64,000 nt of DNA from Rhabditophanes sp. KR3021 (lineage: Eukaryota; Nematoda; Chromadorea; Rhabditida; Alloionematidae), in assembly GCA_963281155.1 (NCBI GenBank), contig CAUJLY010000002.1:868001-932000 (forward strand), in the 5' to 3' direction. Position 1 is the first letter of the stretch; each line of letters starts with the position of its first letter. Below the pieces are notes generated by a model. That model did not search any database. It saw only the letters and a list, made by a program, of their open reading frames with translations, and was not told the origin of the DNA. This document shows positions 34,196 to 56,659 of this stretch, one piece after another. A program made the translations under genes and the position numbers.

Positions 34196-36286
34196 TTAAT
34201 GTTCATTCATATTAAATACTCGTAAAAATATTTTTGCTTCCAAAAGTTTCTCAGCAGTTCTATTTTTCAGTTCGTTAGTTTCTAATTTTGAGACAGCAAA
34301 TAAGTTTCCAACTGCAGCTGATGAGGCAGGCGTTGATAAAAGCGACAAAGCAAATGATACAAAATATTCTTCTCTAAAATTAGTCCAATAAGCCTCCGAC
34401 GTTTCGTTAATTTCAAATTCATAAAAATAACTTAGCAATAAATCTTTTAATGGTGGATTCAAAAAGGATTGGCGTGGTGTAATGTCAAGTTTTCTTTTCT
34501 TAGCAAGTAACCCTTCGAAAGAATCGGAATCATCTTCTTCCTCACTACTAAACAAAGGTTCCGTTTTTTTGGAATTGAGGTTAAATTGAGATACTAAAAA
34601 ATCTGTAACTTTTGTTGCTATATCCATATCAAGATATTTTCTATAGGATGGTTCCAGAAACGTCGCTATGTAATACATTGGATTTTCATCAAAACAAAGA
34701 AATTTGCCAAATCTTTCCGTAAATTGAGTTTCCAGAATAGTTTGTATCTTTTCTTTTGTTACATTATTCTGAGATTTAATTCTCTTTATTTCAAACTCCA
34801 TTCTTTTTAAACAAGGAACAACGTCAGCTAAGTAAAAACAGTCTGACTCCGCTTTGTCAATTGCAAATTTCACACAGCTAAGAAGTTCACTGCATCCAGT
34901 AACAACATTCCAATCACAATTCCCAAAAGATGGTAAGTCTGAACTTCTACGCAATATGGAGTCAATTTCTTCTCTTAACTCTATGGCCCTATCAATTGTA
35001 TTCACTACGTGATACCATCTAGACTGTGAAGGTAAAAGAATTCTTTTATTGCTTTTCAAATAGATTTCGTTATCGAGATATCTCCTTCCTTTAATCCTAA
35101 CCAAAATCGAAATAAGCTTGATAATTGAATTTAATTCATAGTTTTTGAAAATATCACAAAAAAATAAATTCAATTGGTGGGCAAAGCAATGAATTTTGAA
35201 CGGCCAATGTAATGGCGATTCTTCAAATATTAAACAGTCGTTTAAAATTGGCGTCTGTTCCAGAATACTCCGATAACTATTTTCCTCCATAACATCATCT
35301 TCACTCACATCCATTTCACATTCCAAAGGCAAATCACGGTGTAAATCAGAACCATATTTCTCTTCTTGTGCATAATTTTCAGCTTTAATTATAAACTCCT
35401 CCTCACCAGTGTCATCTTCAATAGTTTCGTGAATTCTGAGAACATTTGTTGCACCATCGATACATATTCCGCAAATGTTATCTTTCAAACTAAGATTGTA
35501 CTCTTTCAATACGTTATTTAAATGTCCTTGTATTACTTTGGTAGTTATTCTGCTTTCATTAATAACTTGTACGCTTATCAAATGTCGTTTTTTGTTAATA
35601 AACAAATTTACAGCTATAAAAAATAAATATTTACGCAAGAAAAGAAATAAAATACCTAGAAATTCACGATTGTGTGAACGCCACAAATTTAAAACTAAGT
35701 TAAATTTCTTGGTACTTTTGTAAGAATCAATAAGACATTTCAATTCTTTCTGTTTTTCGGTAGCAGCTACAAGGATGTTTGCTGTTAAATTTGTTTTGGA
35801 AAGAACGTTGATTGCTGGATCCAAAATACTAACTAAATTCTGAAAGTGTGTACTAGTGAAAGAATTAATTGATACTGATGGCAATAATGCCATATCAAAT
35901 AAAGCCTTGTCAAAATTTATTTGTTTCGCCTGCTTTTTGTCAGATTTGGTTGGCAGTACAGCAGTTACTAGATTATTAACTGAAACTTCCTGTTTATTAA
36001 TTGATGTGTCTATTTTATTTTTAGATGCTCCCAATATAATATTTGCACTATCTAACACACTATTTGACGTTTCCAATTTATTGTTTGAATTACTTTCTCT
36101 CTCTTCCCTGATTCTTTTAGAAACATCTAATTCTGGATGCTTCCTAACTAAGTGATTTTTGGCAACGGTGGTTGTTTTTGTTAGTTCATTATTGTTTGCG
36201 TTTTGAGGACAAACTGTGCATCTGATTTTTAAATTAGAAAGTATTTCAAACGATCTATATACATCTGCAGATGATACTTTGCCCAT
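34196..36286 (-). mobile_element. hAT-family transposase (BED finger)
   Basis: A 696-codon open frame starts at ATG 36286. The N-terminus has a BED-type zinc finger (IRCTVCPQNANN..., then KNHLVRKHPEL, giving C-x2-C and H-x4-H ligands). Central parts show hAT catalytic-region features: GICIDGATNV, the CFAHQLNLFFCDIF motif, and SRWYHVVNTIDRAIELREEI. The C-terminus carries the hAT dimerisation block STPASSAAVGNLFAVSKLET followed by NRTAEKLLEAKIFLRVF. The frame is uninterrupted, so it may encode a working transposase or a domesticated protein. I could not find matched terminal inverted repeats or an 8-bp target duplication by eye. A palindrome-rich tract lies 170 bp upstream of the start codon. 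Confidence 0.88.
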
Positions 36287-52841: not shown

Positions 52842-53432
52842 GGTTTACTAGGTATAAATGACATATAAATAGTAAGTAGACATAATAAACAGAGCTTATA
52901 TTCATAATTAGGCGCTTCTTGACAGTTTTCAATTGCTTCTTGGAAGGAATTTGAGCAAGAGAAGGCAAAATAACATTAATTTGTTCAATGCCCAAACATA
53001 TTACTACCTTAACAGTGAATAATGTAGTTTAAAATATTTTAAATTTAGAAAACAACATAGCAAATAATTTTGATAAATTAAAAAGATTACAATACTTGAA
53101 ACAGTGGATAATCAATCTAACATAATCTTGCATATTTCACATTATTTAAAGAACTTGAAGTACTGAATATTCAATGTAATGGACCAAATGTTCATTTTGT
53201 TGTTCCAAAAACATTAACACTACTAATTATAACTGGGGCGATATGTTGATTTAATAAATACCAAAGAGCATTTTAATATGTTAATTCAAAAATGAATGTA
53301 AATTCTGTACTCTACTTAGTGGAAGTACCGTCATCGACAGATGATATAAAGAGAGACACGTAGAGTAAAATATAACACACAAGAATAACAGATTTATTCG
53401 CATGATAATAATATTATAGAATAAACAAATAA
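52842..53432. other. Intergenic; polyadenylation signal of the nuclease gene
   Basis: AT-rich spacer. AATAAA on the minus strand (53393-53398) lies about 35 nt downstream of the nuclease stop codon and is a good poly(A) signal. Confidence 0.5.
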
Positions 53433-53912
53433 TTATTGGTATTCTTCACCATAGAACTCAGCTAAGATTTCACCTTGGTTAAGCCCAGCATCCCATCTTC
53501 CGATGACGTCAGTCAGGATTGTAATAATTTCTTGAGTTCTTGAATAAGAAATTCTGATTAGGTGAAGACCATTGTCTCTACAATAATTGTTCTTCATTTG
53601 GTCGTAGCGTTGTTGCCTCTCAAATGCGGCTGCTCCATTTGGATAACCAGATGGTCTGAAGTGCTGTTCACCATCATATTCAATTAGCAAATTATCTTCA
53701 GCAAAAAAGTCGAATAACAAAGGCCATCTCCTTCCGTTCCCATCAGGATCTCCGACCAAACCAGGGTAAGTCATTCTTCTGGAGTAGGTCAAATTTTGCC
53801 CATTCAACAATATGTAGCTACCCAAGAAGGCATCAATCCTACGTTCTCCCGCTGAGTCCGCATTGCCATTGTATCCACCAATGATTGGTGGCATTTCTGG
53901 AGGAATATCCAT
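53433..53912 (-). CDS. Phage-like PD-(D/E)XK nuclease (Vsr/homing-endonuclease type)
   Basis: A single exon of 159 residues starts at ATG 53912. The core resembles small PD-(D/E)XK endonucleases found in phages, bacteria and large DNA viruses, related to Vsr and EDxHD homing nucleases: an N-terminal helix with Glu (SAGERRIDAF, E23), then PLLFDFFAEDNLLIEYDGEQ followed by HF (D68, E78, D80, E82, H84), the segment RQQRYDQMKNNYCRDNGLHL, and IRISYSRTQE. No other animal domain is fused. The coding stretch is visibly more GC-rich than its flanks. Host-like signals surround it: a splice acceptor (TTTTTTTAG) 10 nt before the ATG and AATAAA after the stop. I infer horizontal acquisition followed by adaptation. 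Active-site residue assignment and activity are inferred from the motif pattern only. Confidence 0.65.
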   Translation of the reverse strand: MDIPPEMPPIIGGYNGNADSAGERRIDAFLGSYILLNGQNLTYSRRMTYPGLVGDPDGNGRRWPLLFDFFAEDNLLIEYDGEQHFRPSGYPNGAAAFERQQRYDQMKNNYCRDNGLHLIRISYSRTQEIITILTDVIGRWDAGLNQGEILAEFYGEEYQ

Positions 53913-53921
53913 TGAATTGAT

Positions 53922-53930
53922 ACTAAAAAA
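53922..53930 (-). promoter_or_regulatory. Splice acceptor before nuclease ATG
   Basis: On the minus strand, TTTTTTTAG ends at 53923, so the exon would begin at 53922, 10 nt before the ATG. It may mark a 5'UTR intron or a spliced-leader acceptor. Confidence 0.5.
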
Positions 53931-54319
53931 ATTAACAAATTTAATTGCTTATTTTTATATTTAATAAAATTATTAAACACATACACGATCGAATAGTAAT
54001 TTTGAGGTAAACTTTAAATAAATTTGATTTGATACCGCGAGATCAAGTTATAAAATGATGTAAATGCATTTGCAAAATGTTATATATTAAAATAAATTAA
54101 ACGTAATAATAAAATGATGATATTGGTCTATGAAAGGCAACAACCTCAATCATCTGATACAAAAATAAAGAATGAATTGAGATGATGAAATAATATTAAA
54201 ATGTCACCAAATATCTCTTGAAACGATTAGTGGAGGAGGGTAGTAAGGCTTAACAATTTTTGACGTAGAAAATATTCTTTTTGTGGGCTATAGGTACTAT
54301 CTAATAAAGGAAGTCGCAG
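53931..54319. other. Intergenic, no gene seen
   Basis: AT-rich sequence between the nuclease gene and the retroelement remnant; no LTR or target duplication recognised. Confidence 0.4.
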
Positions 54320-55727
54320 TCAACTCAAAACAGATGAAAGCTGGCACTTATAATTGCTGTTCAATGAAAAGTAGCCTGGCAACAAGTCCTTCTCCACAAC
54401 GACTTCCTTTTTTACCAAATTGTCGTGTTTCGGGGTATTTTCCATTACTGCCACGGCATCCTCTACCGGTGTTTCATCAACCGCTTTAGATACTACAAAT
54501 GACTTAGTCCTTCCGTTCTGATGCATCAATTGAATCCTAGAAGCAGTAGCTGTTGTAGCTGCGATTGCCTGTGGCCTTAAACTAGAACCTTCCAGCTTTA
54601 TCCCGTTCTCTAACTCTTTAAGGGTTTCAGTCCCATCTTCCACACCTATCCAATCCAAAGAAATCTTTCTTTCTCTCCCAGTGGCTGCTCTCTTCTTTTG
54701 ACCAAATCAACACCAAGTCTTGACCTGCCTTCAGCGGGTAGGGTTTGAAGATTTTGTCTGGCGGCTTCGTTTCGTAATCAAATTTAACACGTATCTTCGG
54801 TTCCGGTATGCTACCATCAAAAATCTTGTGATGTACCATAAACGATTTAACCAACTCCGAATCTTTCCAATGATTACACCATTTTATCCCTTTCCGCTAA
54901 TGATTCACACACTTCCTGACCAATGTCTAGCCCCAATGCCATTACAATCTTACTTGTTACGACAGCTTCTACTCCTCTCCCAAAGAACACATCCGTGAAA
55001 ACTGACTTTGTTGTTTCTACACATGTTAATTGGATTTCGGCTTTACCAATCGCCTTGGTTTTGCCCGCTCCTTTGATGGTCACATTCAAGTCCTCGACTG
55101 GAACATTCATCCTCTGGAACTTCTCTTTCTCCTCCGCCGGTAAAACATTAATTTCCGACCCACTGTCGACTAACGCAGTGAAGATAAGTGGTCCAAACGC
55201 GATTGCCTTGAAGATCATTGAGGCCATATCCCAATCCATCGGTGCCATGCCTTCCCATGTTGTCACTCCCATGGTTATCGGTCTCAAGTCCCTTTGAGTG
55301 TATTCTCTCTTAGACAACACTTCCGCTTTTCCCCGGTTAGATTTGTTCTGGATGGACAACTGCTACTATAATGACCATCTTCCTTGCAATTGAAGCACGT
55401 CTTAGCCCCTCGGACTCTATCTTTCTGGTGTACCTCTGTCTTTTCTGGATGGACAACTGTTGCTGCCACGACATCCTTCTTGACTTCCACCGATTGTCCT
55501 CTTCTGATCGCTATCGCCTTCTTTGCTAATGAATCCTTTGCAAGTTCTCCCATCGCAGCTCCTAAATCTATCTTCTTTCCTGCTAGCTTATTTTTAACCG
55601 CATCCGGTAGCTCTCCGATCAACTTAGCCAAAATAAGATCGTCCACTGACTCTTTCTTCGCTAAATCACCTAACATGGACTTCAATGTCGCCACATAATT
55701 ACCAACACTTTGCTCCGGCGTCCTCAC
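54320..55727 (-). mobile_element. Retroelement remnant: gag zinc knuckle and aspartic protease
   Basis: Successive minus-strand frames carry retrotransposon parts. 55727-55284 is a gag-like segment ending in a CCHC knuckle, CFNCKEDGHYSSSC (C-x2-C-x4-H-x4-C). 55359-54874, in the -1 frame, contains a retropepsin-type motif TALVDSGSEINVLP and following strands. 54854-54627 and 54658-54320 hold further downstream sequence in other frames. The first two overlap by 76 nt as gag and pro often do, but no canonical slippery heptamer is in register, so the shift may just be damage. No reverse transcriptase, integrase or LTR is visible, so the element is truncated. It is GC-richer than its surroundings. 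A Ty3/gypsy-like origin is likely but not proven. Confidence 0.75.
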
Positions 55728-56046: not shown

Positions 56047-56659
56047 CTAGAATATAGAAAATAATTAAGAAAAGATAATAATTATTTCCTACTATATAAT
56101 TCTTAAATTCGTCTGTAACAAATTTTTTACAAAGTTTTTAAATGCCTTCCCTGCCCAGCAGAAATGAGATATTGAAATTTTTTTTAATGATTTCGGTATA
56201 AAAATACCATGGCTTTCAAACCGCATTAACAGAATTTTCATAAAACATTTATTTCTCCGGGGTTAAATGGTCGAAAACCTTGACTTTTCCAGACTTGCTT
56301 CAGGAATGAGCTTTAAACTGATGTTATGAAAAAACTGAGTCTAATAACATATTTATGAAATCAAGGGCTTAAGGGGTTCGCTTACTAGGATGACTAATAA
56401 GGTAGACCACAAATGGTAAAAAAATACTTCTTTTCTAATATGTTTATAAGTGTCAAAATAGATTTGCATATAAATTTACATATGATTTTTAGGATAATTT
56501 TTATTAAGATTAGCTATCAATAGTTTTTAAATTTTAATTAGTCAGACAGATTTGTAGTTTTATCAAAAAACAATTTATACAAGCTTAAAATACACTTTTT
56601 TACTGATTACAATGTTATACCAGCTTGAATATGTAAGATCAAATTATATCAATAATTAT
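56047..56659. other. Intergenic, no intact gene
   Basis: A possible further exon of the broken coiled-coil locus lies around 56098-56120 (minus strand, after TTTGTTACAG), but the phase does not fit. The remainder is AT-rich with no gene. Confidence 0.4.

Follow-up and report, generated by a model that had tools for sequence, protein, structure and literature searches.

The nematode Rhabditophanes diutinus KR3021, which is free-living and parthenogenetic, carries a minus-strand reading frame of 159 amino acids, complete from ATG to TAA, in the 64,000-nucleotide stretch of DNA analysed here (the window; contig CAUJLY010000002.1, positions 868,001 to 932,000). Its predicted product is a stand-alone nuclease of the PD-(D/E)XK type (Table 1). 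The length of the frame is in itself weak evidence, because 3 of 40 Markov-1 simulated windows contain an ATG-initiated frame of at least 159 amino acids; homology is decisive for its reality, the product matching protein sequences with E-values down to 2.7e-11. The sequence-only reading had described the frame as richer in guanine plus cytosine (GC) than its flanks and as lying between a splice acceptor and a poly(A) signal. The GC value is indeed higher (0.419, with 0.28 and 0.26 for the 500 nt on either side), though it is ordinary for coding frames of the window, where five host frames have 0.39-0.46 and a sixth, transposase-like one has 0.32. Both putative signals are also present: the acceptor-like sequence TTTTTTTAG 10 nt upstream of the ATG, and an AATAAA that starts about 35 nt downstream of the stop. 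A tRNA search found none.

Table 1. Positions of the nuclease frame and associated features (window coordinates, except for the loci L027 and L028)
Feature	Position	Strand	Basis
Stand-alone PD-(D/E)XK (Vsr/I-Bth0305I-like) nuclease frame, predicted, 159 amino acids	53433..53912	minus	homology and fold prediction
AG of acceptor-like sequence upstream of the ATG, putative	53923..53924	minus	sequence
AATAAA, poly(A)-signal-like hexamer 3' of the stop, putative	53393..53398	minus	sequence
Block common to the window and L011 on scaffold C1: 88% over 1884 columns (53408-55253) and 90% over 132 columns (53304-53433)	53304..55253	minus	alignment
Decayed retroelement piece adjoining the nuclease: CCHC zinc-knuckle gag-like frame and protease-like frame	54320..55727	minus	sequence
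Similar 5' flanks of GIY-YIG and PD-(D/E)XK genes	L027 1470-1635 and 3526-3675; L028 5931-6612 and 8833-9476	L028 reverse	sequence identity

The window nuclease and its viral relatives

The protein is predicted to adopt a Vsr/I-Bth0305I-type PD-(D/E)XK fold, with an alpha-beta-beta-beta-alpha-beta core, and it matches the profiles of PHROG 559 and 9084 at E-values of 2.7e-22 and 1.4e-16; for the family members at loci L027 and L028 the values are 1.1e-23 and 3.5e-18. Together with outside matches that are viral or metagenomic, these results bear out both the nuclease type and the kinship to phages and giant viruses that had been proposed from the letters. The Pfam DUF2726 cut-off is not reached (16.3 bits vs. 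the required 24.7, with 20.3 for the L027 member), and no match was found in the PDB by sequence, among bacterial defence models or in NCBIfam, nor at E<=0.001 when the predicted structure was compared with the PDB by Foldseek.

Across 70 aligned proteins D68, E78, G81, H84 and D104 are invariant. The nematode loci retain D68 in 16 of 20 cases, E78 in 24 of 26, H84 in 25 of 29 and D104 in 32 of 36, and some of these conserved positions would presumably be catalytic. By our own reading, E23-D68-H84-D104 of the window protein would fit the EDxHD name, with E23 scorable in only 2 of 37 nematode loci. The window copy also retains the phage-like core LIEYDGEQHF.

The closest known counterparts of the family are phage and giant-virus proteins with zinc ribbons and a PD-(D/E)XK domain, which join Pfam DUF4379/DUF723 repeats to a DUF2726-like nuclease (PHROG 559, 9084 and 7140). 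These share with the nematode family a core with FDF, LIEYDGEQHF, D..K and RI-Y, and with its full-length members a zinc-ribbon part that precedes the nuclease. Unlike them, the nematode family lies in an animal nuclear genome, has introns in one full-length member, ends in TATA-like and poly(A)-like sequence and is dispersed over at least 72 loci, while the window copy differs further in having no zinc ribbons. In contrast to the EDxHD homing endonucleases (I-Bth0305I) and the Vsr repair endonuclease, the family has neither an intron or intein host nor a known target site, and any homing by it would be hypothetical. PMC3943268 reports homing-type nucleases from phages, microbes and organelles.

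A dispersed family and its descent

The assembly comprises 44,845,725 bases in 6 scaffolds; the R. diutinus KR3021 genome is listed in Table 1 of PMC10676810 at 44.8 Mb, its six scaffolds measuring 11.2, 9.3, 7.8, 7.5, 6.5 and 2.3 Mb. The window protein has 82 matches in this genome at E<=1, and when same-strand matches less than 1 kb apart are joined these make up at least 72 loci on five of the six scaffolds (8 on C1, 22 on C2, 22 on C3, 17 on C4, 3 on C5 and none on C6). Of the fetched loci, 37 have a usable match, and in 19 of these an in-frame stop interrupts the aligned part. One relative elsewhere in the genome is identical to P0008, a protein listed in UniRef for Rhabditophanes sp. KR3021 under the name 'DUF2726 domain-containing protein'; together with an assembly that agrees with that table in its size and in the number and lengths of its scaffolds, this upholds the earlier placing of the gene in an animal genome. 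The P0008 gene has three exons, separated by introns of 41 and 40 nt.

In full-length members an N-terminal part comes first, then zinc ribbons that resemble DUF4379 below the Pfam threshold, and last the nuclease; the ribbon part of the L020 member is 31% identical to P0008 across 140 columns (E 3e-13). This architecture appears to be the original design of the family. The window frame has neither the N-terminal nor the zinc-ribbon part, and since its product matches the nuclease end of P0008 (37% across 103) it would be a stand-alone derivative. A search with the L028 protein at E<=0.01 returned only P0008 among 771 candidates, by a method that is weak for distant relatives and that took in no set of other nematode genomes; no description of this nuclease family of nematodes was found in the open-licence literature.

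Pairwise comparison of the copies gives a common stretch of about 1.3-1.5 kb, which runs from a TATA-like region just 5' of the first ATG to tens or hundreds of bases 3' of the stop, so that TATA-like and poly(A)-like sequences lie at the ends of the shared unit. The comparison of flanks took in 136 pairs of 17 loci and reached as far as about 4.5 kb to either side, with the unit taken as 1500 nt 5' to 250 nt 3' of the nuclease match. The unit is common to 112 of the pairs and a same-side, same-strand outer flank to none of these 112, and the family thus has the form of a mobile dispersed repeat, a discrete unit within unrelated flanks. The longer block of the window-L011 pair does not extend past the limits set for the unit, so this pair was counted under unit sharing alone. 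Bins of flank identity are poor evidence, as a shuffled control reaches 0.55.

Scaffold C6, at 11,207,000 bases the largest and one quarter of the genome, has none of the 72 nuclease loci, against an expectation of 18 (P ~1e-9), and a second search, with a P0008-type protein, listed no match on it among 73. According to PMC10676810, Chr6 shares synteny with the S. ratti X, and C6, to go by its scaffold number, would be this X-syntenic chromosome. Control families are not depleted there, and neither are reverse transcriptase, hAT genes or a 370-bp repeat of the window, whose counts follow below: C6 holds 6 of 26 Srsx receptors, 13 of 44 C-type lectins and at least 38 of 128 kinase matches (126 of 437 candidates having been scored). 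The Pfam GIY-YIG family shares the gap with the PD-(D/E)XK family: of its 52 matches (E<=1), 23 of them over the curated cut-off, not one lies on C6; among LEM-3-like GIY-YIG matches, 2 of 12 are on C6.

In a protein tree of 131 of 252 rows (24 nematode rows, P0001-P0007 and 100 random draws, with P0008 in place of the L028 row), 22 nematode copies, that of the window among them, group together with an SH-aLRT support of 100. The P0008/L027 pair stands outside this clade in the free tree; a single clade of all 24 nematode rows is not rejected (p-AU 0.80) and has a higher likelihood than the free tree. A donor was also sought in this phylogeny and none could be settled, with 113 columns and half of the forks open. 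The DNA tree of 34 copies is star-like, and in a label test on it (34 of 37 loci, L027, L028 and L198 having been removed beforehand) the chromosomes are not clearly clustered, a value as low being reached in 20 of 200 shuffles. L010 and L011 join the window copy in a subclade with support values of 100/98.

When the window is set against 32 loci, the ratio of replacement to silent divergence (dN/dS) is saturated for 8, lies at 0.13-0.47 for 23 and is 1.47 for L011. With the window left out, the pairwise median is 0.71 for the shallowest (6 pairs, dS <0.4), then 0.43 (31 pairs), 0.37 (57) and 0.31 (48), and deeper still 0.28 (42) and 0.23 (98 pairs, dS 1.2-2). The deep lineages have thus been under selection. 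L011, the nearest copy to the window, is 88% identical, lies on C1 and is broken in frame. Since its split from L011 the window branch has taken up 13 replacement and 2 silent changes, compared with a neutral ratio of 3.8:1, and there is therefore no sign that the window frame is being kept; the L011 branch has 19 replacement and 7 silent changes (13 changes unresolved). The window copy is likely now drifting, among decaying ones.

Origin and manner of spread

On balance, we favour the view that a nuclease gene of phage or giant-virus type was acquired in a nematode lineage and likely spread across the autosomes as a selfish mobile gene; at least 72 scattered loci, none of them on the largest chromosome, make such spread probable. 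A single acquisition from a phage-like or giant-virus-like source would have provided an ancestral full-length protein whose zinc ribbons bind DNA and whose Vsr-like domain cuts it, and repair of the break would help to copy the unit to new places. The window copy, which lacks zinc ribbons, was duplicated between two chromosomes together with a piece of a dead retroelement. If this is true, a nuclear family of a homing-type nuclease at dozens of sites in an animal would show in nature what gene drives are built to mimic. That it is missing from a quarter of the genome in which other mobile elements occur commonly offers a direct test of what permits the spread of such genes, be it germline chromatin, recombination partners or chromosome rearrangement.

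Several observations weigh against selfish spread. Cleavage by the family is a prediction, and in most of the approximately 25 copies that reach these positions EIDGGYHF replaces EYDGEQHF. Consistent terminal inverted repeats were not seen in 8 copies, and neither target-site duplications nor inverted ends at L023 and L014 were convincing, the copies being old; most of those fetched are 60-80% identical, which leaves a margin of tens of bases on the unit ends, and both the 5' and the 3' end vary between subgroups. No empty site is known for the unit, and Pfam found no transposase or reverse transcriptase among the reading frames of L018, L020, L027 and L028. The trend of dN/dS with dS, the pattern that would be expected if multiplying lineages were under selection while resting copies decay, is partly built in, as the ratio is plotted against its own denominator. 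Finally, reverse transcriptase (13 of 39) and hAT (10 of 23) genes are present on C6, and simple random insertion therefore fails to explain its emptiness.

The main rival, possible if doubtful, is a host nuclease family active in defence or repair, which multiplied by birth-and-death duplication and whose copies were scattered by autosomal rearrangement that left out the conserved X. It agrees with the low dN/dS of the deep comparisons against the window and with a full-length member that is a UniRef protein in three exons. It also accounts for the empty X more easily than selfish spread does, the autosomes being described as fused and rearranged and the synteny of the X as conserved in PMC10676810, but it does not account for the lost flanks, nor for the stops in half of the fetched loci, the loss of most constraint in the 6 shallowest pairs, or receptor and lectin families that are not depleted on C6. 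A stronger form of selfish spread, which we regard as rather unlikely, would make the family an autonomous one-gene element: a Vsr-type nuclease of phage-like or giant-virus-like source that reached at least 72 autosomal sites through its own breaks, with no transposase or reverse transcriptase, was barred from the X, and shares a promoter module with a GIY-YIG element.

It is less likely again that the nuclease is a passenger, captured and spread by a Helitron-like element, a non-autonomous DNA transposon or a retroelement. The window nuclease does adjoin a gag-like retroelement piece, and no eukaryotic element is known to mobilise itself by means of such a nuclease alone. However, the common sequence stops at the ends of the unit in 112 pairs, terminal repeats were not found, the protease-like frame has 4 matches in the genome vs. 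82 for the nuclease, and, in a search confined to RVT_1 and hAT, none of these 82 has a match of either type within 10 kb.

The acquired function that had been suggested at first (selfish homing, defence or DNA repair) survives as selfish spread, the best of the three, and fails as a single, recently acquired gene expressed and kept as a host gene. The latter is very improbable in spite of the intact frame and its acceptor-like and poly(A)-like signals, as it is refuted by copy number and faces a nearest copy with a broken frame, stops in 19 of 37 loci and a window lineage without visible constraint (13 replacement to 2 silent changes). Contamination by viral or bacterial DNA, which the metagenomic or viral nature of the best outside matches might suggest, is excluded in practice by copies on five chromosome scaffolds, by host genes in the same window and one copy with introns, and by the long-read and Hi-C basis of the assembly (PMC10676810).

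Neighbouring repeats and GIY-YIG genes

The block common to the window and L011 extends beyond that of other pairs and includes the dead gag/protease piece. The second frame of this piece has no Pfam match, and we take it from its motif to resemble an aspartic protease; its matches in the genome are confined to the window locus and two places on C1. A repeat of about 370 bp at 56137-56475 stands on the 5' side of the gag piece in the window, but in L011 on the 3' side of the nuclease. This looked like a pair of long terminal repeats, an idea that was rejected, as the sequence is a separate dispersed repeat. With 40 of 148 candidates scored, it has at least 40 matches, which fall on all six scaffolds, 10 of these 40 on C6, and the other listed copies are 75-88% identical.

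LEM-3-like GIY-YIG genes of the same genome differ from the PD-(D/E)XK family in nuclease fold and resemble it in their 5' flanks at L027 and L028. There the two genes stand in the same arrays, and their flanks resemble each other as far as the first exon, with 78% and 89% identity; it looks as though different nucleases had come to sit behind one promoter module.

Elsewhere in the window, the minus strand at 34196-36286 holds an open frame of 696 amino acids with a BED zinc finger just below the Pfam cut-off, presumably a hAT-type transposase.
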